Assembly: GCA_002709075.1 (NCBI GenBank)
Contig: PAPV01000015.1
Span: 62,001 to 126,000 of the forward strand
Origin: Rhodospirillaceae bacterium
Lineage (GTDB): Bacteria > Pseudomonadota > Alphaproteobacteria > MPNO01 > UBA2964
Reading direction: 5' to 3'
DNA: 64,000 nt
Below the pieces are notes generated by a model. The model saw only the letters and a program-made list of their open reading frames with translations, ran no database searches and had not been told where the DNA came from. Both the position numbers and the translations under genes were made by a program. Shown here one piece after another: positions 2,956 to 43,995 of the stretch (within the stretch, counting starts at the first letter, position 1; the number at the start of each line of letters is the position of its first letter).

Positions 2956-4770
2956 TTAAAGACCTGCTGCAACTGCAATTTCTAACGCGAGCTTTCGCGC
3001 TGCATCTTTTAACCCAATTTTAAAAAGTGCAGCAACAACTTCTTCTGCAGCATCAAAGTTTTTATGGTCTATGCCTTCTTCACCGAGAATGATAAGTGAC
3101 AACGCTATTATTTCCCCTGTTCTTCCACTTGAGACAGCATTCCTAAGTAACACCCGAAGTGCAACGGGTTTCTGATAACTGGCGAGGATTTTTTCAGAAG
3201 TAATTACATCACGCCACAAAATATTGGGAACATTGACATCAACTGCGTTCAGCAACGAATAGAAAACACGGGCCTTATAAGAAAAACTATCCGAAAATTG
3301 TTTTTGATTTTTTTCATGCCATTCAACTAGTGATTTTCTTGTGACCCCTTCCGCGGGCACCTGGCCTGACAACACAGCGAGATGCCAAAGCGATTCCGTA
3401 TTATCGTCCCGAGCCACATTTCCATTAAGCTTTATCCACTCTTTTGACAACGCAAAATCACCGGAAGATGCAAGACCACGGGCAGCTGTTGGAGCAAACC
3501 ACGCAAGGTTTGAAGATGGACGTATACCTCGCAATGGATATGACATAGCTCTAGCAGTTAATGGTAAGTCATCTTCTTTTCGGGCAATTCCTATCGCTCT
3601 GCTCAACGCCTTAGCCCTATTTCCTGGCGCTGTTTCTGACATTGCGGCTTGTATAAGCATCGCCCGAGCCGCTGCACCCCAATCAAGGGTCGTCCCGGAT
3701 ACCGCCTGTTTTAATACGCTAGAACTAAATTTCTGAAGCCGGTAAATATTTGAAAGAACCGATGGACTCAAAGCTCCACCCAATGCGGCTAGCTCTCCGG
3801 CGTTGACCCTTAGAACCACTGGTGCATTAGGACTCAATGCTAGTGATGCATAATTGCCTACCAAGAGTTCTTTTGGAAGGGATTTAGGTAGGGGAACATT
3901 GCCCGCGCGCAAAAGAGAGGTCAACAATGCATTGAATACCTCAAAACTTTCCAATGGCTCCGGCTTAGTGCCAGAAAGTGCATCCATACCTACAAAGAAC
4001 GCTGGATCAATAACATCCTCGCGTTCTGCCAAAATATCCGAAAGCAACATAGCTTGTGTTTCATTGCCATTAGCCGCCAAGCAAAAAGCCTGACTTTGCT
4101 TCCAATATGCGTTTTTGAATTCTTGAGCGTCCCCCTGCACAAGAGCGCAGGCTTTTTTAATATCATACCGATGAAACAAAATCTCTGCTCTTATTTTTAA
4201 AAGAGCTTCGTCCGGTTTCACAGGCGACGCCGCCTCCATCAACTTCATGGCAGATTCATAATCACCCATAAGGTATAGCGCGTTTACACGTAAAAAAATT
4301 AGTGGGACTTTGGGTGCATCTGACTGGGGCGCCTCTGCACGAGTAAGCAACAAACGTCTAGCTAAATCCCTTTGTGTTGGCGATGACATCTGCTTCGGTA
4401 GAAGCGATAAAAGTTGCACTACGAACGGACGACTCGATCCAGCCCACATTTCTGTTCCAAATCCACCCTCAAGTTCGCTCAGTGTTCCAATGGAGTCTGA
4501 ATCTACTAGATCTAGCTTTTCCATTTCCACACTATTAGGAACTATCTTTTCTACTTTTTGGCTGTCATTTTTATTTTCATTATTAACAGAACGCCGCGGC
4601 CCAAGTGGTATCGGTTTTGCTGACACTACTTGGCCCATTTGCTCCCGTATTTCAAAAGACATTACCTTAATTTCCTGACCAATAGCGATGCTAGTCAGAA
4701 ATATGGAAAAGCTAGCAAAAACTGTAGCGAGAACCACAAACATCAAATTTTCAAAGCGGAAAACGATCAT
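2956..4770 (-). CDS. Hypothetical membrane-anchored/secreted protein, possibly repeat-rich helical
   Basis: About 604 residues from the chosen start (MIVFRFENL). One hydrophobic segment near residues 10-30 could be a signal anchor or signal peptide; the rest is soluble, largely helical and alanine/leucine-rich, with helix-turn-helix spacing reminiscent of TPR-like solenoids (for example PLIFLRVNALYLMGDYESA). No catalytic motif was recognised. The open frame extends further upstream to 4845, but that extension is covered by the 46-residue gene at 4751-4891, so the ATG at 4770, which overlaps the end of that gene by 20 bases, is preferred. A poorly characterised protein in this position between xerD and aroK is common in alphaproteobacteria (recalled, not searched). 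A periplasmic or inner-membrane role is inference. Confidence 0.7.
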   Translation of the reverse strand: MIVFRFENLMFVVLATVFASFSIFLTSIAIGQEIKVMSFEIREQMGQVVSAKPIPLGPRRSVNNENKNDSQKVEKIVPNSVEMEKLDLVDSDSIGTLSELEGGFGTEMWAGSSRPFVVQLLSLLPKQMSSPTQRDLARRLLLTRAEAPQSDAPKVPLIFLRVNALYLMGDYESAMKLMEAASPVKPDEALLKIRAEILFHRYDIKKACALVQGDAQEFKNAYWKQSQAFCLAANGNETQAMLLSDILAEREDVIDPAFFVGMDALSGTKPEPLESFEVFNALLTSLLRAGNVPLPKSLPKELLVGNYASLALSPNAPVVLRVNAGELAALGGALSPSVLSNIYRLQKFSSSVLKQAVSGTTLDWGAAARAMLIQAAMSETAPGNRAKALSRAIGIARKEDDLPLTARAMSYPLRGIRPSSNLAWFAPTAARGLASSGDFALSKEWIKLNGNVARDDNTESLWHLAVLSGQVPAEGVTRKSLVEWHEKNQKQFSDSFSYKARVFYSLLNAVDVNVPNILWRDVITSEKILASYQKPVALRVLLRNAVSSGRTGEIIALSLIILGEEGIDHKNFDAAEEVVAALFKIGLKDAARKLALEIAVAAGL

Positions 4771-4891
4771 CAGAAAGAATTCTCTCCACAGGTGATGAGG
4801 GAGCAGGAATGTCCGTTGTTGACAAAAAAACGGCAACCCCCACAATAGTTGTAAGAATCAATATGAAGATGGCTAAGGTCAAACGTGACAT
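4751..4891 (-). CDS. Small single-pass membrane protein, 46 residues
   Basis: A short gene. Translation begins MSRLTLAIFILILTTIVG, one hydrophobic helix (about residues 4-24), and continues into a short polar tail, DIPAPSSPVERILSDDRFPL. A Shine-Dalgarno-like GGGAG lies 7 bases upstream of the ATG. The last 20 bases overlap the start of the downstream 604-residue gene, so the two are likely translationally coupled. The pattern of N-terminal helix, a D-I-P-x-P segment and a terminal DxRFP resembles small proteins seen beside aroK in other alphaproteobacteria (memory only). Function unknown. Confidence 0.75.
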   Translation of the reverse strand: MSRLTLAIFILILTTIVGVAVFLSTTDIPAPSSPVERILSDDRFPL

Positions 4892-11022: not shown

Positions 11023-13842
11023 TCAATTCAATCGACCGACAGATTTGGCAATAAATATGTATAATTTACCAATATCTGCAGATAAAAATGTTGAACTTAG
11101 AAGGTTTTCCGGATCAGATCGATTCGCATCGCTAAGCAATCGTTCAAAGTGGTCGAGATATCGTTGTGTGTACTTTCTAAATTCTTCATCACCCTCAAAC
11201 TTAGCACGGATCACTTCTTCAGCATGCCGCGCGTCGTTAAGTAACATTCCCCGCACAAAGGCTCCCTTTTCCCCTTTATACAGGCGCTTCCATAACTTTG
11301 CTGATCCTCGTTCATCAATTATTCGATTGAGATCTATAGCCGTAGAATTTAAGTCTTCAATGATGAAACGAGATGCACGCAAAAATTCATCGCGTTTTGA
11401 GTCAAAAGTATTTGCCTGAATTACTTGTGCCTGATCCTCTGCATTTTGCGAGGCAAATTGTAATTTCTTTGCTTGACTTTCAAAAACAGTCCCTATCTCA
11501 GCAGCTTTGGTGACCGCATTTTCAAGAGCCTTACTTAGATCACTAGTATGTGATTGAAGGGCATTACGAACGGAGCCAACTTGCCGGGCTGCTACATCTG
11601 AAGCCTCGGATAGCTCTCGCGCATGTTCTCGGAAAACACGAGAAATTGCAGCAATTCGTTGTTCCGTCAAGCTAGATGACGTTTGAAGTGCACCTTGTTC
11701 ATCTTTTAATCCTGTCATTATTTCTACAACGTCCGATGCAACGCGAGTTGCTGCATCAATCATTGATCTTATTTGAGTCTCTAGCGCTTCACCGACTTCA
11801 TTAAAACTATCTGTCGTCGAGTTTGAAGCATCACGAATAGAGACAATATATTCATCAAATGCTTGACTTAGCTTTTCAACTCTCTCGCTTGTCACCTCAA
11901 CAGCTGTTTCAATCTCTTCAGTGCGACGATTTATTAACAAACCAATTTTTTCACCACGTTTGACCGCAGCTTCAGAAACTGTAGTCAAATGACTTTCCTG
12001 TTGATCCAAAGCAGCGCTCATACGGACAAATCTCGTATTTGTTTGCTCAACCATTTGATTAGATTGATTCTCAAATTCTAATGTTTGTTGGCGTAAATTT
12101 TCAGTTATCTCTGCTGCACGTTCAAGTGCACGATGTGTGACTTCTTCAGTCATTTTCTCAAATTTTTCCTGTTCTTCGGAAAAAAGCGACTGCAAACGTT
12201 TAGACTGCTCGGACACTTTGTCTACGAGCTGCAATGCCAGTTCATCTAGTTCTTTAATTTGGACCCCCAACACAGTGCCGCTCTCACCGAAGCGTCTTTC
12301 AATTTCACCCGTGGTTTCCTCTGCGTTTTGAACAAACGAACCAAGTTTTAGAGCGATATTTTTTTGAAGTAAACTGCTCGCCTCTTCAGACTTATCGAGC
12401 ATACTTCTAGCAGAACTCTCTAACGTATTTATTTCCTCTTGAATTGAATTTCTGATTTCAGTTGAATGAGTTTTAATAATTTCTAGCGATTTCTGGCCAA
12501 CTGCCTCAAGAATTTCTCTCTGCTGCGAAAGCACCGAACGAGCATCCTTTGTCTGTTCTTCTATTAACAATTTGTTGCTCTCTGTAACCTCTCTCATTAC
12601 TTGGGCCTGGTTTGTGAAAGCTTCACCTAGATCAGCTATATTTGTCAAAGCGTCTGCTCCAGCTTTCTCAGCAACATAAACTATACGTTCACCATGACTA
12701 TTCAACGTATTCATTATTTCATTTAATTGTGCTCTCCCACTCTCAATTGCTGCGCGTATTTGGTTCTCGTGCTTTGAACCAGATTCTCGCACTTCTTTGC
12801 CGACAGTACTAACCTTGTCTGAAATTCCGTCTGCAATCTTTGAAAGGGAAGTCATTTCTTCACGCAAAATACCACTTGAGTTATTAACCGCTGAAGTCAC
12901 ATTCTGTGAAGCGGTGGAAAGATTTTCTGTTTGATTAAAAAAATTATCCAATGCGTCATCAATGTTGCTTATGGTAGTTCTTAGTTCAGTAGTGACTTCC
13001 TGTGCTTGAGCATGGAATGTATCAACAAGATTGCTCGAATTTTCTAGAGCATTTTCAGCAAAACTCACCATTTCTTTTGCATGTCTTTTTACCACTCCGG
13101 AAACCTCAGAAATCTTATTGATTGCTTCATCTGATTGCAAAATACACTGGGAAGACTCTTCACGTAATATTCCGCTCGTATCAGTAAGGTTAGTTACCAC
13201 CTCATCAAAATTCCTTACCGCCTCATCTGACTGATTTCGTGCAAAGCTTGTAGCTGTGAGAACTCGTGAGGCTGCTTTTTCTGCATTCGGTCCTATCGTC
13301 TCAATTTGTTTTGCTACTTGTTCGGCCGTTTCCTTAAGTTGATCTAAAGCGGTCAGTGCAGCTGCATCTAGTCTATCAATCTGTCGCTCCACATTCTCGT
13401 TTACTGTGATGGCCTTGTCACCGAGACTTTTTGACACCTTGTCAAGCTGATCAGTCTGGGCCCTAAGCCCACTGTGAAGGTATTGGGCCTGTGAAATAGC
13501 ACGATCTGACACAGCAGATAGTTCCTGAGCCTGAGCTCGCAGAGCACCCGATACTGCTTTCACGCGAGATTCTGCATCATCAAATGGATAGGTCATTTTA
13601 CTTAATTCATCATGCAATTTACCAGCAGTTTCCCGCAACACACTGCCTCTACCAAAATAAGCCAGTACAAGCCACATAAAGGCCAACGGTGCAAAGGTTC
13701 CAGTTAGAATGATAGCAATTTCATGCGGAAGCATGGAGAACAAGTTATTCCAACCTACATTGCTTCCAATGTGATCAGCACACAAAGTAAGCCAGACTAG
13801 ACTTATCACCAACGCGGCAAAACCGTAAAACTTATTGTTCAT
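11023..13842 (-). CDS. Large membrane-anchored coiled-coil protein
   Basis: 939 residues. Two N-terminal hydrophobic helices (about 5-25 and 42-64) precede a very long alpha-helical region (about 75-830) rich in Ala, Glu, Ser, Gln and Asn with heptad-like spacing and repeats of the kind ALRAQAQELSAVSDRA. Methyl-accepting chemotaxis proteins and apolipoprotein-like helices share this texture, but no MCP signalling hairpin (EIxxxxxxI/V and GEGFAVVA-like) was found. A compact C-terminal domain follows (about 830-939: KLWKRLYKGEKGAFVRGML). A structural or polarity/cell-envelope organising role is possible but is inference. It is transcribed toward the MFS gene. Confidence 0.75.
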   Translation of the reverse strand: MNNKFYGFAALVISLVWLTLCADHIGSNVGWNNLFSMLPHEIAIILTGTFAPLAFMWLVLAYFGRGSVLRETAGKLHDELSKMTYPFDDAESRVKAVSGALRAQAQELSAVSDRAISQAQYLHSGLRAQTDQLDKVSKSLGDKAITVNENVERQIDRLDAAALTALDQLKETAEQVAKQIETIGPNAEKAASRVLTATSFARNQSDEAVRNFDEVVTNLTDTSGILREESSQCILQSDEAINKISEVSGVVKRHAKEMVSFAENALENSSNLVDTFHAQAQEVTTELRTTISNIDDALDNFFNQTENLSTASQNVTSAVNNSSGILREEMTSLSKIADGISDKVSTVGKEVRESGSKHENQIRAAIESGRAQLNEIMNTLNSHGERIVYVAEKAGADALTNIADLGEAFTNQAQVMREVTESNKLLIEEQTKDARSVLSQQREILEAVGQKSLEIIKTHSTEIRNSIQEEINTLESSARSMLDKSEEASSLLQKNIALKLGSFVQNAEETTGEIERRFGESGTVLGVQIKELDELALQLVDKVSEQSKRLQSLFSEEQEKFEKMTEEVTHRALERAAEITENLRQQTLEFENQSNQMVEQTNTRFVRMSAALDQQESHLTTVSEAAVKRGEKIGLLINRRTEEIETAVEVTSERVEKLSQAFDEYIVSIRDASNSTTDSFNEVGEALETQIRSMIDAATRVASDVVEIMTGLKDEQGALQTSSSLTEQRIAAISRVFREHARELSEASDVAARQVGSVRNALQSHTSDLSKALENAVTKAAEIGTVFESQAKKLQFASQNAEDQAQVIQANTFDSKRDEFLRASRFIIEDLNSTAIDLNRIIDERGSAKLWKRLYKGEKGAFVRGMLLNDARHAEEVIRAKFEGDEEFRKYTQRYLDHFERLLSDANRSDPENLLSSTFLSADIGKLYIFIAKSVGRLN

Positions 13843-22892: not shown

Positions 22893-24542
<1,650 letters not shown>

Positions 24543-24836
24543 TTACTCAATAATGCCCATGATATCGGATTCTTTCATTATAAGATAATCCTTACCATCG
24601 ACCTTTACTTCTGTTCCTGACCATTTGCCATACAGCACCCGATCACCTTTTTTAACATCCATTTCAATTAGCTTTCCGTCGCTATCTCGCGAACCGGCAC
24701 CCGTAGATATAACTTTCCCTTCCTGCGGCTTTTCTTGTGCCGTATCAGGAAGAATAACCCCACCCGCAGTTTTAGCCTCCGCTTCAGAAGCTTGAACTAA
24801 AACCCGGTCGTGAAGGGGCCGAAATTTAGTAGCCAT
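24543..24836 (-). CDS. groS: Co-chaperonin GroES (Hsp10)
   Basis: 97 residues, typical. Begins [15 protein letters not shown]; the mobile-loop region that docks onto GroEL is [20 protein letters not shown]. First gene of the groES-groEL operon, with the CIRCE element 43 bases upstream and a sigma-70 promoter just beyond it. Confidence 0.99.
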
Positions 24837-26236: not shown

Positions 26237-26265
26237 TTGACGGCTGTTTACAGCATCTATAACTA
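26237..26265 (+). promoter_or_regulatory. Probable promoter of the SAM-II/metZ transcript
   Basis: TTGACG (26237-26242) followed after 17 bases by TAACTA (26260-26265), or after 15 by the better-matching TATAAC (26258-26263). Either would start RNA near 26270-26272, right at the 5' edge of the SAM-II aptamer. Confidence 0.5.
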
Positions 26266-26272
26266 CCGTTAA

Positions 26273-26334
26273 CAGTGGTGATTTGAGCCCGATCGGCTTG
26301 CGGCCACAAAAAAATAATCGCTAAAAGATCGGAG
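26273..26334 (+). ncRNA. SAM-II riboswitch (SAM_alpha)
   Basis: The conserved SAM-II order is visible: CAGTGGTGATTTGAGC, then CCGATCGGCTTGCGGCCAC, an A-rich linker, and CGCTAAAAGATCGG. P1 forms between GTGG (26275-26278) and CCAC (26304-26307). The pseudoknot P2 forms between CCGATC (26289-26294) and GATCGG (26327-26332), an exact six-base complement. SAM-II binds S-adenosylmethionine and shuts off methionine-synthesis genes in alphaproteobacteria, which fits metZ 72 bases downstream. Confidence 0.93.
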
Positions 26335-26355
26335 CTTTCCAAGTCCTGATCTTTT
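26323..26355 (+). promoter_or_regulatory. Alternative hairpin overlapping the SAM-II pseudoknot
   Basis: AAAAGATC (26323-26330) is an exact complement of GATCTTTT (26348-26355). Its left arm contains GATC, which is also the 3' strand of the riboswitch pseudoknot, so the two pairings exclude each other. It may be the expression platform; the short T run makes a weak terminator, so control of translation or RNA stability is equally possible. Confidence 0.45.
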
Positions 26356-26405
26356 AAATAGGAAATTTGCTTAAGGGGAAAAGTGATCAGAAGACAGGAA
26401 ACATT

Positions 26406-27599
26406 ATGACAATAGGGGAACATGAAAAAACTTGGCGTCCTCAAACGCGGCTTGTTAGGGGCGGTTTGCAACGGAGTGCATTCGAAGAAACAGCTGAGGC
26501 GATTTACACGACTTCAGGGTTTGTTTACGACACTGCCGAAGCTTCAGAGGCGGCATTCAAAAATGAAACCAAACGCTTTATATATTCTCGTTATGGAAAC
26601 CCAACAGTTGAAATGTTTCAAGATAGGCTATGTTTGCTGGAAGGTGCGGAGGCATGCCGGGCCACCGCAAGTGGAATGGGTGCAGTGTTCACCTCTCTCG
26701 CTAGCATATTAAACGCAGGAGACCGCGTAGTTGGCTCCCGCGCTTTATTTGGTTCTTGCCAATATATTTTGACAGAAATTCTGCCAAGCTTCGGTGTCCA
26801 GACAATAATTATCGACGGCACCGATAAAAAACAATGGGAGAGAGCATTATCCATTCCAACTAAGGTTGTTTTTCTTGAAACACCGAGCAATCCAGGCTTG
26901 GAAGTGATAGACCTCCCGATGGTGTGCAATTTAGCGCACAATGCCGGGGCCTTGGTGGTAGTGGATAATGTCCTTGCAACACCTGTGTTACAACGGCCAT
27001 TAGAACTTGGTGCAGATGTAGTAGTTTATTCCGCCACCAAACATATTGATGGTCAAGGACGTGTCATGGGGGGGGCCATTTTAAGTACGAACGATTTCAT
27101 GGAAGAAATGAGCCCTTTTTATCGCCACACAGGACCCTCTCTAAGCCCGTTCAATGCATGGGTTCTTCTTAAGGGTCTTGAAACACTTGAACTAAGAGTA
27201 AAACGACACTGCCAGAATGCCGCGACTATCTCTGAATTTTTATGTAGTAGAAGTGATATTTCTCGCGTCCTCTATCCAGGTTTGCCATCACATCCGCAAA
27301 ACAAACTTGCAATTAAACAGATGTCAGGATTTGGCTCAGTTGTTAGCCTTGATTTAAACGGTAAAAAACAGAATGCGTTCACATTTATGAACGCGCTAAA
27401 GTTGATTGATATCTCGAATAACCTCGGCGACTCAAAAAGTATTGTGACCCACCCGGCAACAACCACTCATCAAAGAATTTCAGAGGCTGACCGAGCCGTT
27501 TTAGGAATAACTGATGGATTTGTTAGAATTTCAGTAGGGCTTGAAGACATAGATGATTTGAAAGAAGATATAGAACAAGCTCTTGATGAAGTATCATAA
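26406..27599 (+). CDS. metZ: O-succinylhomoserine sulfhydrylase
   Basis: 397 residues from ATG 26406 (MTIGEHEKTWRPQTRLVRGG), preceded by AGGA; the frame's earlier ATG at 26367 lies in the leader. A Cys/Met-metabolism PLP enzyme: the PLP lysine is in VVYSATKHIDGQGRVMGG (about 195-212), with YSRYGNPTVEMFQ and ETPSNPGLEVID also diagnostic. It makes homocysteine directly from O-succinylhomoserine and sulfide. The SAM-II riboswitch upstream supports the metZ assignment over cystathionine synthase or lyase paralogues. Confidence 0.93.
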   Translation: MTIGEHEKTWRPQTRLVRGGLQRSAFEETAEAIYTTSGFVYDTAEASEAAFKNETKRFIYSRYGNPTVEMFQDRLCLLEGAEACRATASGMGAVFTSLASILNAGDRVVGSRALFGSCQYILTEILPSFGVQTIIIDGTDKKQWERALSIPTKVVFLETPSNPGLEVIDLPMVCNLAHNAGALVVVDNVLATPVLQRPLELGADVVVYSATKHIDGQGRVMGGAILSTNDFMEEMSPFYRHTGPSLSPFNAWVLLKGLETLELRVKRHCQNAATISEFLCSRSDISRVLYPGLPSHPQNKLAIKQMSGFGSVVSLDLNGKKQNAFTFMNALKLIDISNNLGDSKSIVTHPATTTHQRISEADRAVLGITDGFVRISVGLEDIDDLKEDIEQALDEVS

Positions 27600-37240: not shown

Positions 37241-39583
37241 ATGGGTGAATTTGGTATAGGACAGTCTGTTCCGAGAGAAGAAGATCCTAGACTTCTAACA
37301 GGAGGTGGGGATTTTCTGGACGATGTCAACTTACTGAATCAGGCTTTTGGATACGTTCTTAGAAGTCCACATGCTCATGCTAGCATCTTGTCAATCGATA
37401 TATCAGCTGCGAGAGCTTCAAAAGGTGTTATTAAAATTCTCACTGGCAAAGATTGGATGGAAGAAAATTTTGGTACGATGCCATGTGAAGATACTAACTT
37501 TGCCAAACGTGCGGATGGAAGTGCAATGTTTCATCCCTATCGGGGTGCTTTAGTAACCGATAGAGTACGTTTTGTCGGAGATTATGTTGCATTTGTAATT
37601 GCCGAAACAAAACTTCAAGCGCGGGACGCGGCTGAATTAATTGCGGTAAAATATAAGATTCACCCTGCTATAACCTCAATTGATGATGCTACTACACATG
37701 GAGCAGAGCCAGTATGGCCAGAGAACCCAGATAATATTGCCTTTACTTTGGAAAAAGGCGATGAAAATCAGGTAGATAAAGCTTTTAAAAAGGCTGACCG
37801 AGTAATTACGCATAATTTTGTAATTAACCGAGTGACTGCAGTAACAATGGAGCCAAGGGGATGCATCGGTGATTTTGATAGAAGAACTGACCGATTCACA
37901 CTTTATACCGGACTTCAGAATCCACATCCTGTCCGCCAGCAACTGACGCAAGGAGTTTTTAAAATTCCCGAGACGCAAATGCGAGTGGTACCAGGCGATG
38001 TTGGCGGAAGTTTTGGAATGCGTGGTGGAACTTACCCAGAACTAGCATTAGTTTTGTGGGCAGCCAAAATTATTTCACGTCCGGTAAAATGGACCTGTGA
38101 CAGGTCGGAAGGATTTATGTCCGATGATCATGGAAGAGACAATCTCAGTAAAGTATCATTAGCCGTAGATAAAAACGGATATTTTTTAGGTCTCAAAGTG
38201 GAAACCTTTGCAAGCATGGGGGCTTATTTAGCAATCAGAGGTCCCCGGCCACCTACTAATAATTTAGGAACTCTCGCTGGTGTTTATCGAACTCCAGCTG
38301 CTTTCGTTCGCGTAAGCGGTGTTTTTACAAATATGAACTGCACCAATCCTTATCGAGGATCAGGTGCTCCAGAAGCTGCTTACAATATTGAAAGAATGGT
38401 CGATATTGTTGCTAATGAGCTCAATATGGATCCTGCTAAACTGCGCGCAATAAATTGCGTCACGCCCGATCAGATGCCGTGGACAAATGCCCTTGGTTTT
38501 CATTATGACTGTGGTGATTTTCCAGGCAATCAGGCGAAAGCTTTGAAAGCCATAAATTATGACGACTTCAAGATGCGGCGTGCCTTATCGAAGACGAAAG
38601 GTAAATTACGAGGTATAGGCATATCAAATACTGTGAAAAAAACGTCATCACCATTTCCGGAATCCTGCAAACTTCGGTTCGATCCTTCTGGAACACTTAC
38701 TATGATAATGGGCACGATTAGCCACGGCCAAGGTCATGAAACAATTTTCAAACAAATAGTCTGCGATAAATTAGGGTTAGAACCATCAATTATTAGATAT
38801 GTACAAGGCGACACCGACATAGCGTCTTACGGAAGAGGGACCTTCAATTCTCGTTCAACAGCAATCGGCGGTTCAGCTGCTGCACTTGCGTGCCAAAAAA
38901 CTATAGAGAAAGGAAAGAGGATTGCCTCACACCTGATGGAAACTGCTGAACAAGACATAATTTTTTCAAAAGGCTATTTCACTGTCTCCGGAACCGATCG
39001 ATCACTCAAGTTGATTGAACTGGCTAAAAAATCATTCCAAGCTAATGAATTACCGCCTGACATTGAACCGGGTCTTGATGAGCAGGGAAGTTTCAAACCT
39101 GAGTATTGGAATTGGCCAACGGGGGTCCAGATATGTGAAGTTGAGATTGACCCAGAAACTGGAGAGACTGAAATCCTAAATTTTGTATGTGTAGATGATG
39201 TTGGCACTGTAATTAATCCCTTGCTCTTAAAAGCACAAATGCATGGCGGTATTGCACAGGGAATTGGTCAAGCATTAATGGAGGAAGTAAAATTTGATAG
39301 TGAAACCGGACAACTTTTGTCTGGATCATTGATGGACTATTGTATGCCCCGAGCGGATGACTTTTGCTTCATGGATATTATTAGCTCTCCAACATATACC
39401 CGCTCAAACTTAATTGGCGCCAAAGGTGGTGGTGAGTCGGGGCCTACTGGAGCACTCCCAGCCACTATAAATGCTGTGGTTGATGCACTTCAAGAATTAG
39501 GTATTTATCATTTAGATATGCCAGCAACACCACATAGAATATGGAAGGCTATTCAAAATGCACGCTCAAAAAAGGCTGCATGA
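37241..39583 (+). CDS. Molybdenum hydroxylase large subunit (xanthine dehydrogenase/CoxL family), copy 1
   Basis: 780 residues, full length for the molybdopterin-binding subunit. N-terminal GIGQSVPREEDPRLLTGGGDF, molybdopterin-contact region VPGDVGGSFGMRGGTYPEL (about 250-268), and the catalytic-Glu region GAKGGGESGPTGA (Glu732). The active-site loop reads NPYRGSGAPEA (371-379), not the CO-dehydrogenase AYxCSFR loop, so CO oxidation is unlikely; substrate could be an aldehyde, aromatic or N-heterocycle. It also departs from the common YRGAGR form. The TGA stop is directly followed by the ATG of a second copy. No FAD or 2Fe-2S subunit gene is adjacent. Confidence 0.9.
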   Translation: MGEFGIGQSVPREEDPRLLTGGGDFLDDVNLLNQAFGYVLRSPHAHASILSIDISAARASKGVIKILTGKDWMEENFGTMPCEDTNFAKRADGSAMFHPYRGALVTDRVRFVGDYVAFVIAETKLQARDAAELIAVKYKIHPAITSIDDATTHGAEPVWPENPDNIAFTLEKGDENQVDKAFKKADRVITHNFVINRVTAVTMEPRGCIGDFDRRTDRFTLYTGLQNPHPVRQQLTQGVFKIPETQMRVVPGDVGGSFGMRGGTYPELALVLWAAKIISRPVKWTCDRSEGFMSDDHGRDNLSKVSLAVDKNGYFLGLKVETFASMGAYLAIRGPRPPTNNLGTLAGVYRTPAAFVRVSGVFTNMNCTNPYRGSGAPEAAYNIERMVDIVANELNMDPAKLRAINCVTPDQMPWTNALGFHYDCGDFPGNQAKALKAINYDDFKMRRALSKTKGKLRGIGISNTVKKTSSPFPESCKLRFDPSGTLTMIMGTISHGQGHETIFKQIVCDKLGLEPSIIRYVQGDTDIASYGRGTFNSRSTAIGGSAAALACQKTIEKGKRIASHLMETAEQDIIFSKGYFTVSGTDRSLKLIELAKKSFQANELPPDIEPGLDEQGSFKPEYWNWPTGVQICEVEIDPETGETEILNFVCVDDVGTVINPLLLKAQMHGGIAQGIGQALMEEVKFDSETGQLLSGSLMDYCMPRADDFCFMDIISSPTYTRSNLIGAKGGGESGPTGALPATINAVVDALQELGIYHLDMPATPHRIWKAIQNARSKKAA

Positions 39584-41902
39584 ATGAACAAATTTGGCAT
39601 TGGACAACCAGTCCCTCGAACAGAAGATCCAAGACTACTTCAAGGGCGTGGACAGTATGGTGACGACTTTGTGTTGGCGGATCAAGCGGTTGGCTATTTT
39701 CTACGATCTCCGCATGCTCACGCGAAGATTTTAGATTTAAATTGCAACTCAGCAAAACAAATGCCTGGGATATTGTGTATACTCACCAATGAGGATTTAT
39801 CAAAAATGGATCTTGGTGAATTTCCGGTGGTGGTACAAAGGCAAAAACGTAATGGAACCACACAACAAGCTGCCCGAGAGGGGCTTGCCCGCAATCGAGT
39901 GCGATTTGTTGGTGATCCAATTGCGTTTATTGTCGCAGAAACACTCAATGAAGCAAAAGATGCAGCAGAACAAATTGAAATAAATTTTGAATTACTACCT
40001 TCGCTAACCGATCTGGAAGATTTCAACAGCCAAGAATCATCACCAATCTGGGATGACTGCCCGGATAACGAAGCTTTTTTTTTCGAAATGGGAGACAAGT
40101 CTGCTGTCGATTCAGCGTTTAACAAAGCAGATCACATCACAAAGATCTCCTATCGCATTAACCGAATCTCTGCTAATGCAATGGAACCCAGAGTTTCAAT
40201 TGGAAATTTCGACTGTCGATCAGAACGATATTTTTTGACCACCAGCACGCAGAGTGTACATGGAATACGGACCCACCTTGCTAATATTTTAAAAGTACCA
40301 GAGACAGTCATCCGTGTAAAAGCGGGTGATGTTGGCGGTGCATTTGGTATGAAAGGTGAACTATACGATGACCAGTTACTTGTATTAATAGCTTCACAAC
40401 GAGTTGGGAGACCAGTCCGTTGGACTGCGGACCGCACTGAATCTCTTATGTCCGATACCCATGCTCGCGACAATAAAGTTACTGCGGAACTTGCTCTAGA
40501 CTTACATGGAAAGTTTTTAGGTTTCCGTGTCCATACAGTCGCCGCGCTCGGCGCATACATGTCTATGATGACAGGACATTCTCCTACAAATAACTTAGGT
40601 GGATTGGCTGGTGTATACACCACACCAGCGATCTATACTTCCGTCTCCGGTGTCTTTACAAACAATAACAATACCGCGCCATATCGCGGTGCAGGTCGCC
40701 CGGAAGCAAGTCTTGCTATTGAAAAGGCTATCGACAAGGCGGCACGTGAGTTGAAAATTGATCGTTCAGAAATTAGACGCCGTAATATAATTGCTCGGGA
40801 GTCAATGCCCTTTCAAACCGGCTTGATATTTAATTATGACTCAGGTCGATTTGAAGAAACGCTCGATAAGACATTAGTCTTGGCAGGATGGTCAGATTTT
40901 GAGACAAGGCGCAAAAAGGCGGTCTCGGAGGGGAAACTGCGGGGAATAGGCCTAGCCTGCGCTATTGAACAATCTGCTGCCCCAATAGAAGAAGCAGCTG
41001 AAATTCGTTTTGATAGCAAAGGTAAATGCGCTATTCTTGTTGGCACTGTCGCGCAAGGTCAAGGCCATGACATAACATTTAAACAAATTACAAATGAACT
41101 GCTTGGCGTGCCCATAGAAAATATAACATTTTTACAAGCTGATACCGATATTGTAGCGCACGGCCGGGGCACCTTTGGGTCTCGCTCTGCCGGCAATGGT
41201 GGTGGAGCCCTAATGATGGCAAGCGAGAGAATAATAAGGAAAGGAAAAATTATTGCAGCTTACATGCTCGAAGCCGCACAGGAAGATATCATATTTGAGA
41301 ATGGAAATTTTAAAATTGGCGGCACAGATAGAAAAGTGGAGTTAGCTGATGTCGCAAAACAAGCCTACAATGTGAATTTGCCTCCAAGTATAGAACCAAC
41401 ATTGCAGGCGCAAGCTGCTTTCAAACCCAATGCCCCTACTTTTCCAAATGGATGCCACGCTTGCGAATTAGAGATAGACCCGAGTACTGGAACCACAGAG
41501 TTTATGAAATACATCGTAGTCGACGACGTTGGAACAGTAATAAACCCACTTCTTCTAAAGGGTCAAATTATTGGCGGCGTTTCGCAGGGGTTGGGTCAAG
41601 CAATATGCGAAGATGTCGCATACGACCGCCAGAGCGGTCAGTTAATATCAGCATCATTTGTAGACTACTGCATGCCGCGAGCAGATGACATGTGCTATGT
41701 GGACGTAGTAAGCAACAGTGATCCTTCCCCTACAAACCCGCTTGGCATCAAGGGAGCAGGGGAGGCTGGGTGTGTTGGCGCTCTTCCATGCGTACAAAGT
41801 GCACTGATTGATGCGCTTTCTCCCCTAGGCATTACTGACGTACCAATGCCAGCCACCCCTTTCAGATTATGGAAGCTCCTTCAAACGGTTAACCCCTCCT
41901 AA
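39584..41902 (+). CDS. Molybdenum hydroxylase large subunit (xanthine dehydrogenase/CoxL family), copy 2
   Basis: 772 residues, closely parallel to copy 1 over its whole length (GIGQPVPRTEDPRLLQGRGQ at the N-terminus, KAGDVGGAFGMKGELYDDQ, GIKGAGEAGCVGALP at the C-terminus with the catalytic Glu). The active-site loop is APYRGAGRPEA (365-375), the form II type found in aldehyde- and heterocycle-oxidising relatives, not CO dehydrogenase. Copies 1 and 2 start alike and abut without spacing, so they are probably cotranslated and may form a mixed enzyme; this is inference. Small and medium subunits must come from elsewhere in the genome. Confidence 0.9.
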   Translation: MNKFGIGQPVPRTEDPRLLQGRGQYGDDFVLADQAVGYFLRSPHAHAKILDLNCNSAKQMPGILCILTNEDLSKMDLGEFPVVVQRQKRNGTTQQAAREGLARNRVRFVGDPIAFIVAETLNEAKDAAEQIEINFELLPSLTDLEDFNSQESSPIWDDCPDNEAFFFEMGDKSAVDSAFNKADHITKISYRINRISANAMEPRVSIGNFDCRSERYFLTTSTQSVHGIRTHLANILKVPETVIRVKAGDVGGAFGMKGELYDDQLLVLIASQRVGRPVRWTADRTESLMSDTHARDNKVTAELALDLHGKFLGFRVHTVAALGAYMSMMTGHSPTNNLGGLAGVYTTPAIYTSVSGVFTNNNNTAPYRGAGRPEASLAIEKAIDKAARELKIDRSEIRRRNIIARESMPFQTGLIFNYDSGRFEETLDKTLVLAGWSDFETRRKKAVSEGKLRGIGLACAIEQSAAPIEEAAEIRFDSKGKCAILVGTVAQGQGHDITFKQITNELLGVPIENITFLQADTDIVAHGRGTFGSRSAGNGGGALMMASERIIRKGKIIAAYMLEAAQEDIIFENGNFKIGGTDRKVELADVAKQAYNVNLPPSIEPTLQAQAAFKPNAPTFPNGCHACELEIDPSTGTTEFMKYIVVDDVGTVINPLLLKGQIIGGVSQGLGQAICEDVAYDRQSGQLISASFVDYCMPRADDMCYVDVVSNSDPSPTNPLGIKGAGEAGCVGALPCVQSALIDALSPLGITDVPMPATPFRLWKLLQTVNPS

Positions 41903-41955
41903 AACAGCAAACTAAACGTGCGTAGAATGTTAGAATATAATTCGGATAAAACTTC

Positions 41956-43281
41956 TTAAACTGCACAAGTTCGAAATCCCGAAAAGCGATCACTACGATC
42001 CATCGCTTCAAAATTACGTAAGGTATTCCATACGGCTCTTCCGCGGGTTGCCCAAGACCCACCCCGGAGAACCGGATGGCGACCGTCCATATGTGATCGG
42101 GAAAATTTTTCCATCATATCAGGAGCGAATCCTGGATATTCTGACAGTGCTGATTGGGTCCACTCCCAGACGTTACCAATCATTTGACGAGCACCATATC
42201 CACTATCACCCGAGGGAAAGGATGTCACATCACAGGGACCGCCAAAGTTACCATCAAGGTTTGCAAATGTTACGTTGATTGTATTTTTGTTCCAAGGGTA
42301 ACGGTGTTTGGGACCACTTAATTTATTTTCAAAACGGGGAACTAATGATGCTGCAATTTCCCATTCTCCCTCCCAAGGCAACCTCCGACCTGCCCAACGA
42401 CACCACGCATCAGCTTCAAACCAGTTTACATGAATAATGGGATCTGACTTTTTTAAAAGCTCCCATTTGTCGAATAGACGTGCATTCCATCCATTTGAGT
42501 TTTCTCTCCAATAGACTGGATTTCGAGCTTTTGTATATGATCGCCACCCCCATCCTGCTTTAGACCACAAATCACTCCGTTCATAACCACCATCTTCTAA
42601 AAATAAGAGAAATTCTTCATTCGTTACAGCAAGTCTTGAAATATGAAATGGTGCCACCTCGTAACCGTGGCCCCATTTTTCATTGTCTAGAATAAAACCA
42701 TCTTCTGGTGATGCTCCTAGGGAATGAATACCTCCCGGTATGTAAACATCTCCGGCTTGTGACTTGCCAGAAGCGACTACCATGTCACCAACAAAACTCG
42801 GAGCGGGAAAGCCATTAACTTGGCGTTGTGTGATAAGCATTTCTCCAAGCATATCCTCACGTTGTACACAAAACCGACATGCAAAACTTGCTTCAGGAGA
42901 GGCTTTTTCAAGGTCACCAAGTGCGAATGAAACGCTATCAGCTACTCGGTTAAAATAGTTCATTGTTGTATCAATATCAGGTAAAGGTAAATTCCATAAA
43001 TTGGAATTCAGTGCAATCTGATCATTGAATAAAGCACCCACATCCGAGAGCCCGACCGGCTGCATTCCCAAACGATCTAATAGATAGTGGTCATAAAGCC
43101 AAGCAATATGTCCAAGAACCCAAAGCGGTGGTAAAAAATTTCGACGACACGGCCCAATCAACATTTCGTCACTTAAATCAGCTACCAGTGCCTTTGTCCT
43201 GCAATGTGCATCCGCAGTAATACTTAAGAGATCGGAAATGAGCATGGGTTCTACAGTCGATGGAGGACGCACTAGGGGCAT
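41956..43281 (-). CDS. EgtB/SUMF1-like protein with altered iron-binding motif
   Basis: 441 residues. An N-terminal DinB-like four-helix domain (about 15-160) and a C-terminal FGE-sulfatase/SUMF1 domain (about 175-440: HVNWFEADAWCRWAGRRLPWEGEWE, read in parts, GNVWEWTQSA, LRGGSWATRG, FSGFRTCAV). This is the architecture of EgtB/OvoA-type non-heme iron sulfoxide synthases. The first iron-ligand His is present (LGHIAW, His58), but the second motif, usually H-E-x-M-H-x-E, reads REDMLGE (141-147), so two of three His are gone. A changed metal or changed function is likely. It faces the CoxG-like gene divergently. Confidence 0.8.
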   Translation of the reverse strand: MPLVRPPSTVEPMLISDLLSITADAHCRTKALVADLSDEMLIGPCRRNFLPPLWVLGHIAWLYDHYLLDRLGMQPVGLSDVGALFNDQIALNSNLWNLPLPDIDTTMNYFNRVADSVSFALGDLEKASPEASFACRFCVQREDMLGEMLITQRQVNGFPAPSFVGDMVVASGKSQAGDVYIPGGIHSLGASPEDGFILDNEKWGHGYEVAPFHISRLAVTNEEFLLFLEDGGYERSDLWSKAGWGWRSYTKARNPVYWRENSNGWNARLFDKWELLKKSDPIIHVNWFEADAWCRWAGRRLPWEGEWEIAASLVPRFENKLSGPKHRYPWNKNTINVTFANLDGNFGGPCDVTSFPSGDSGYGARQMIGNVWEWTQSALSEYPGFAPDMMEKFSRSHMDGRHPVLRGGSWATRGRAVWNTLRNFEAMDRSDRFSGFRTCAV

Positions 43282-43371
43282 GCTAATAATTCCTTTTAGC
43301 TACAATGTTGGACGACACGTTCGCATTGTGAGATAAAGAATACATCAAAAGCAGTGAAAGAGTAGAATAGT

Positions 43372-43995
43372 ATGGAATTTGATAACAAATTCAACGTCCC
43401 GGTTTCGACCGAAGAGGCGTGGAAAATCCTTATGGATATTGAACGAATAGCCCCTTGCGTACCAGGTGCAGAGTTAACAGAGATAGTTGATGAGAGGACC
43501 TACAAAGGAAAAGTATCGGTCAAACTAGGTCCTGTAGCATTAACTCTTAGTGGCCAGACGAGCTTCGATGATATCGACGAAAACGAAAAGAAAGCTCGAC
43601 TCACTGCAAAGGGTAACGATACGAAGGGTCGCGGAGGAGCGAATGCAACAGTTGCATTTCACATGGAAGAAGTAAGTGACGGCACTTGCGTGGTTATTAA
43701 TACAAATCTCCAATTATCAGGCGCCGTAGCGCAGTACGGACGCGGTGTAGGCATGGTAAAAGATCTGGCACAACAAATAATTGACCAATTTGCAAAGAAT
43801 TTAAGAGAGAATGTTATAGCACCGTCGACTTCCGCCCAATTAACAAAACAAGATACTGACAGTGCTGTAAAAGATACCTCGGCCACCAATGGTATAAAAC
43901 CCGCAGCACCAGTTCAGGTAGGAAGCATGGGTCTAAAAGTCATTTGGAACGCTATGTTACGGGGATTACGAAAAGTTTTTGGTATGAGCAAATGA
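43372..43995 (+). CDS. CoxG-like SRPBCC-fold protein
   Basis: 207 residues. The first 150 match the CO-dehydrogenase subunit G (CoxG) family: MEFDNKFNVPVSTEEAWKIL, DIERIAPCVPGAELTE and the AQYGRGVGMVKDLAQQIIDQF helix. The tail is polar and ends in an amphipathic, possibly membrane-binding helix (VIWNAMLRGLRKVFGM). CoxG helps attach carbon monoxide dehydrogenase to the membrane in Oligotropha; relatives accompany other molybdenum hydroxylases, as here. It probably serves the two hydroxylase large subunits next door. Confidence 0.87.
   Translation: MEFDNKFNVPVSTEEAWKILMDIERIAPCVPGAELTEIVDERTYKGKVSVKLGPVALTLSGQTSFDDIDENEKKARLTAKGNDTKGRGGANATVAFHMEEVSDGTCVVINTNLQLSGAVAQYGRGVGMVKDLAQQIIDQFAKNLRENVIAPSTSAQLTKQDTDSAVKDTSATNGIKPAAPVQVGSMGLKVIWNAMLRGLRKVFGMSK

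Follow-up and report, generated by a model that had tools for sequence, protein, structure and literature searches.

Neighbouring molybdenum hydroxylase large subunits of a Rhodospirillaceae bacterium, and the operon, probably shared, that would supply their small and medium subunits

The window analysed here is a stretch of 64,000 nucleotides from the genome of a marine bacterium of the Rhodospirillaceae, on a 172-kb contig (C15), and the locus of interest within it comprises four genes.

37241..39583, + strand: L1, large subunit of a molybdenum hydroxylase of the xanthine-oxidase family, 780 aa; loop PYRGSGAPEA, catalytic Glu732
39584..41902, + strand: L2, second large subunit, 772 aa; loop PYRGAGRPEA, catalytic Glu kept
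41956..43281, - strand: EgtB/SenA-like protein with an FGE-sulfatase domain, 441 aa; convergent to L2 and divergent from the CoxG gene
43372..43995, + strand: CoxG-like protein, 207 aa; Pfam match to PF06240

An earlier note on this DNA had described two full-length large subunits that abut without a spacer and differ in their active-site loops (YRGSGAPEA in the first copy, YRGAGRPEA in the second), and this description is accurate: the TGA of L1 occupies positions 39581-39583 and the ATG of L2 begins at 39584, and the loops read PYRGSGAPEA and PYRGAGRPEA. The two proteins are 47% identical, both contain the hammerhead, MoCoBD_1 and MoCoBD_2 domains at full length and above the Pfam gathering cut-offs, and the best match of each in the PDB is CoxL (8uem; 512 bits for L1 and 449 for L2). 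The catalytic Glu near the C terminus is kept in all 22 large subunits of the genome, L1 and L2 included, and both proteins also retain the Gln and the GGxFG motif, so that neither is marked as altered; the suggestion that one copy is catalytic and the other altered was therefore abandoned. Both genes are intact and under constraint (dN 0.042-0.13, used in place of a ratio since the synonymous sites approach saturation). Their identification as an aerobic CO dehydrogenase was also rejected. The loop motif of form I CoxL, AYXCSFR (SYRCSFR in the plasmid CoxL), includes a Cu-binding Cys that is absent from L1 and L2, and their scores with the NCBIfam CO dehydrogenase model TIGR02416 (537 and 504 bits) miss its curated cut-off of 991.

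The best PDB match of the EgtB-like protein is OvsA (223 bits), and its scores lie below the NCBIfam cut-offs for SenA (354 against 420 bits) and EgtB (264 against 360). The iron site of EgtB presumably consists of three His residues, one in GHxxW and two in HxxxH; at the predicted site of the window protein His58 is kept and the other two are lost, with HEDMH replaced by REDML (REDMW in the relative G001), while the motif is intact in the other six aligned orthologues. Because the iron motif is replaced and the cut-offs are missed, the window copy is probably not an active sulfoxide or selenoxide synthase. The loss of this motif also led us to reject the window gene as an active synthase of ergothioneine or selenoneine, even though the genome encodes a second, intact EgtB-like copy (G000:C13:57072-58355) and an EgtD homologue (C8:9865-10764). 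As for the fourth gene, CoxG is described in the accessible text of PMC13240472, which cites others, as passing electrons to quinone, and the CoxG-like protein of the window is probably a quinone-side electron acceptor.

Elsewhere in the window, a SAM-alpha riboswitch (26265-26344, + strand) lies just upstream of a gene for a PLP enzyme of Cys/Met metabolism (26367-27599), an arrangement typical of alphaproteobacterial regulation. An ORF of the GroEL/Cpn60 family (544 aa, 22893-24527, - strand) is preceded by a 97-aa ORF (24543-24836) that is probably groES. Two long ORFs were also observed, one of 939 aa (11023-13842, - strand) whose sole Pfam match is weak, below cut-off and apolipoprotein-like, and one of 629 aa (2956-4845, - strand, TTG start) that matches no Pfam family at E 1e-5.

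Linkage of the genes for the small, [2Fe-2S]-carrying (S) and the medium, FAD-carrying (M) subunits to that of the large subunit (L) is the usual gene order in the xanthine-oxidase family and not a condition of the fold. The CoxM and CoxS partners, noted previously as absent on both sides of the pair, are in fact absent from the whole of C15, which has no match to Fer2_2 or FAD_binding_5, so the absence is real. No S or M was seen in the corresponding clusters of the same family (f1) or in the related block of G015, and among the relatives none turned up with S or M adjoining L1 or L2 itself.

Orthologues of L1 are present in ten relatives of family f1 (G001, G003-G010 and G012; 68-78% identity) and in family f3 (69-70%), and those of L2 lie beside L1 in family f1 (67-75%). 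The comparison of neighbourhoods that the earlier note had proposed found L1, L2, the EgtB-like gene (antisense) and CoxG together and in this order in all nine f1 genomes, our own included, that show both large subunits; the contigs of G003 and G010 end too early for the L1-L2 order to be judged. In nine relatives a short-chain dehydrogenase (SDR) gene follows L1 (detected with Pfam in three relatives, and by tblastn with the G001 protein, which matched the other eight); it was not found within 1 kb after L1 in G003, and it is missing between L1 and L2 in the window. Since the SDR gene separates the two in relatives, their spacer-free abutment, which had been taken as a feature of the locus, is not conserved and looks like a loss of that gene, most simply by deletion, and a conserved, fusion-like L1-L2 unit is ruled out. 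Some relatives have additional genes between L1 and L2: those of G005 encode a PhyR/ECF-type sigma factor, a 258-aa ORF and a cytochrome c' (L089 8951-10968). G015, from another family of the order, has the arrangement L-L-SDR-L-EgtB-CoxG, and a block L-SDR-L-EgtB-CoxG is present in f4; in f3 genomes L1 lies near UbiD or luciferase-like genes and L2 does not adjoin it. The proposal that the EgtB-like and CoxG genes belong to one system with the large-subunit pair thus stands as regards the conserved cluster (nine of nine f1 genomes and the f4 block), but the EgtB-like protein of this genus, having lost two predicted iron-ligand His, makes a poor candidate for a functional partner.

The missing partners are a genome-wide pattern and not a local feature of L1 and L2. 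A search for coxS and coxM elsewhere in the genome, also suggested beforehand, found 8 S and 8 M against 22 L in 2.52 Mb (99.9% complete), so their absence beside L1 and L2 is not due to chance. Six L have S/M of their own and 16 have none within 5 kb, counting one at a contig edge (C15a) and two that lie about 6-7 kb from the set of another L (C13b and C12a); these 16 are referred to as orphans. Two S/M pairs, conversely, have no L: C17 (CoxG-S-M-CoxD-CoxE-XdhC) and C21 (M-S). The relative G005, assembled in one contig, has 43 L matches that correspond to 41 distinct genes, with 14 S and 13 M; S adjoins 13 of its L, 28 are without S/M of their own (broken genes counted), and its single S/M pair without L is the C17 orthologue. 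Broken L genes do occur in G005. L outnumbers S in 27 of the 27 genomes of the order, with totals of at least 422:127 in f1 and at least 537:248 in the 14 other genomes, compared with at least 60:41 in the seven of 14 class relatives that have both genes. The difference between order and class relatives is significant when related genomes are treated as independent (Mann-Whitney p 0.0004; five genomes enter with L counts of at least 45). An excess of catalytic- over accessory-subunit genes, a mark of molybdenum enzymes that share accessory subunits, is thus present here.

In related genomes the C17 operon has an L between S and M (coxG-S-L-M-D-E), and orthologues of its M (M17, at least 60% identity) were found in 20 of the 27 genomes of the order, besides which G017 has a fragment. 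Counting that fragment, M17 is present in every one of the 16 genomes with a completeness of 90% or more; in six less complete genomes (67-86%) it was not found. Among these 20 operons, nine have an L beside M (in eight it lies between S and M, and in G022 the S is off the contig) and 11 have none, yet S and M are open in all 11. A 154-aa remnant of L survives in G019, and its best match is the N-terminal part of the in-operon L (52% over 105 residues). On the tree of hub proteins the L-less operon arose at least twice, in f3 and again within f1; a single-change history is found in none of 200 bootstrap trees, and the two changes are forced by well-supported branches. Strong constraint acts on hub S and M, whose dN between G005 and G006 is 0.012 and 0.018; the values for L1 and L2 are 0.042 and 0.058.

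Other S/M pairs stand beside different L types in different genomes, so that an L orphaned in one genome adjoins an S/M hub in another; these gene-order swaps, at hubs B and C, would speak for the use of the same S/M by different L. In G003, G004, G005, G006, G008, G011 and G012 the L after the S/M of hub B (C21 in our genome) is of 27972 type; it is of C13c type in G002 and of C4a type in G015, and G000 (our genome) and G001 have no L there; in a bootstrap tree the L of G002 groups with the C13c orphans (100/100) and that of G015 with the C4a orphans (91/91). The L after the S/M of hub C is of C13b type in G002, G004, G005, G006, G007, G009 and G012 and of C5b type in G000 and G001. Differential loss among paralogous LMS sets could produce the same picture, although this is disfavoured because the S/M sets of our genome, eight of eight, have reciprocal best hits in G005. 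Assigned by clade, the 22 L fall into eight for hub A (C17), five for hub B, three for hub C (the S/M beside C5b; the count is approximate and the placement of C15d provisional), two for hub D (C5c, beside its S/M, and C19b) and four dedicated ones, which matches the eight S/M sets. C19b (986 aa; L040 8142-11102) is a natural L-CoxG fusion with a C-terminal CoxG domain, and C5c, of similar length, looks alike. The number of partners per hub correlates with the conservation of M between G000 and G005 (Spearman 0.77, permutation 0.016) and less so with that of S (0.58, 0.068), in a post hoc comparison of eight points.

A tree of 72 rows, built without broken L shorter than 700 aa, unites the in-operon L in a single clade (support 99) next to an orphan clade (99) that holds L1, L2, C3, C12a, C14, C18, C22a and C22b. 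The fork that joins the two clades has an SH-aLRT of 86%, or 89% with cultured bacteria added, both below the 95% mark. The orphan clade comprises 26 orphans and one linked row. In this tree G005_3254101 is labelled an orphan although the M of another set lies about 1.2 kb away. With cultured bacteria added, the in-operon clade includes S-L-M genes of Azospirillum, Microvirga, Novosphingobium and Phaeobacter, and only three cultured L with S/M nearby fall inside the orphan clade, from Paraburkholderia, Rhizobium and Agrobacterium. In all three the M is closest to M17, and in two of the three the S is closest to S17, the exception being Agrobacterium, whose S matches S2 best while its M matches M17; the M that accompanies a Nonomuraea L, outside the orphan clade, is closest to M5b. 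The L references from our own genome hold no in-operon type, and it is the larger tree that separates in-operon from orphan-type L. Orphan-clade L also occur in Neorhizobium petrolearium, Sinorhizobium meliloti and Azospirillum thermophilum, with no S/M in the stretches examined. Plasmids of the first two (L251 1551-8289 and L255 1615-8313) carry two orphan L, and those of N. petrolearium are accompanied by UbiD and CoxG.

On the evidence of the sequences, L1 and L2 probably draw S and M in trans from a shared hub, the C17 coxG-S-M-D-E-xdhC operon, to which they are assigned by clade membership. This operon formerly had its own L between S and M, which was then lost. Our genome would contain several hubs, of which A (C17) would serve eight L, B (C21) five, C about three and D two, together with four dedicated LMS sets. 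The gene counts, the in-place loss and its remnant, the swaps and the phylogeny are observations, and the physical assembly, the electron path and the substrates are inferred: each L would set the substrate, electrons would pass from S to the FAD on M, and CoxG would probably hand them to quinone. L1, L2 and the SDR encoded between them in relatives would probably act one after another in a single catabolic pathway. The neighbours of L genes in our genome, which encode UbiD decarboxylases, an amidohydrolase, class III CoA-transferases and a hydantoinase B, suggest the catabolism of aromatic or heterocyclic acids. A more ambitious version, which we consider unlikely, is a combinatorial system in which at least eight interchangeable L compete for one limiting S-M-D-E-CoxG module, the choice of the recalcitrant compound to be attacked depends on this competition, and neighbours such as L1 and L2 form mixed dimers for successive hydroxylations.

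Enzymes of the xanthine-oxidase family are dimers of LMS units, and this, together with the fact that L1 and L2 are same-strand neighbours in all nine f1 genomes that show both, would be compatible with a single mixed enzyme, either an (L1-M-S)(L2-M-S) heterodimer or a catalytic subunit paired with a structural one. Such an enzyme is improbable in view of the catalytic residues in both copies, the SDR gene that separates them in relatives and the f3 genomes in which L1 lies beside UbiD and luciferase-like genes without an adjoining L2. We are just as doubtful that the orphan L work without S/M, whether as Moco enzymes that carry out no redox reaction or by relying on a different redox partner, for instance cytochrome c' or CoxG by itself. 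The cytochrome c' gene between L1 and L2 in G005 and the CoxG domain of the hub-D type C19b would agree with this; however, the Glu of the family is present in 22 of 22 L of our genome, orthologues of C13c and C4a adjoin the hub-B S/M in G002 and G015, and S/M pairs persist after the loss of their L.

Two further readings are very improbable. One holds that the orphans are genes in decay or products of misassembly, with the S/M of the hubs surviving by chance; some L of G005 are indeed broken and most of the genomes compared are MAGs, but neither L1 nor L2 is broken and both are constrained (dN 0.042-0.13), the pattern extends across the order and includes G005 with its single contig, and S and M are open in 11 of 11 operons without L. 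The other supposes a fixed S/M partner, encoded elsewhere, for every orphan L and no sharing, on the model of kdhL, which is separated from kdhMS on nicotine plasmids; the S/M do not suffice for this, since our genome has eight pairs for 22 L and G005 has 41 L but 14 S.

Large gene families of this type in marine bacteria are currently interpreted as so many separate enzymes of three subunits each, or as CO dehydrogenases. Should many L share one S/M module, counts of L would overstate the number of enzymes active at once, an L cloned without its hub would fail, and a single new catalytic gene would suffice for a new substrate. The cultured carriers of orphan L of the same clade make this sharing open to test.

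Several known systems resemble parts of the one proposed here. Aerobic CO dehydrogenase (cox) has the same subunit fold and the accessory genes coxG, coxD and coxE, but L1 and L2 lack the AYXCSFR loop, score far below the cut-off and are encoded apart from M and S. The EgtB, SenA and OvsA synthases share the DinB-like and FGE domains of the window protein, in which two of three iron-ligand His are replaced. SAR202, also a marine lineage with many paralogues, has an expanded carbon monoxide/xanthine dehydrogenase family (28 proteins in one family over assemblies; PMC5395668); it belongs to another phylum, and subunit sharing is not discussed in the accessible text of that paper, nor do subunit-sharing terms match in that of the SAR202 pangenome paper (PMC6946804). 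In our literature search, which covered few subscription papers, nothing turned up on S/M hubs shared within the xanthine-oxidase family. An LMS enzyme of that family whose L gene is split from M and S is known, namely Kdh (6-hydroxypseudooxynicotine dehydrogenase) of Paenarthrobacter nicotine plasmids, which, as described in the available parts of PMC8305194 and PMC10494377, differs in having one L per MS pair, with no sharing reported there. The steroid C25 dehydrogenases of Sterolibacterium denitrificans are similar in gene counts: their catalytic alpha genes outnumber the beta-gamma genes and the alpha subunits are thought to share beta-gamma, according to the accessible text of PMC6016249; they belong to the DMSO reductase family and have other accessory subunits, whereas the system proposed here, from genes alone, is of the xanthine-oxidase family and would have up to eight L per hub. 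Sharing of accessory subunits has already been proposed in another molybdenum family, the separation of L from MS is known from Kdh, and what appears to be new is the proposed S/M hub of the xanthine-oxidase family.
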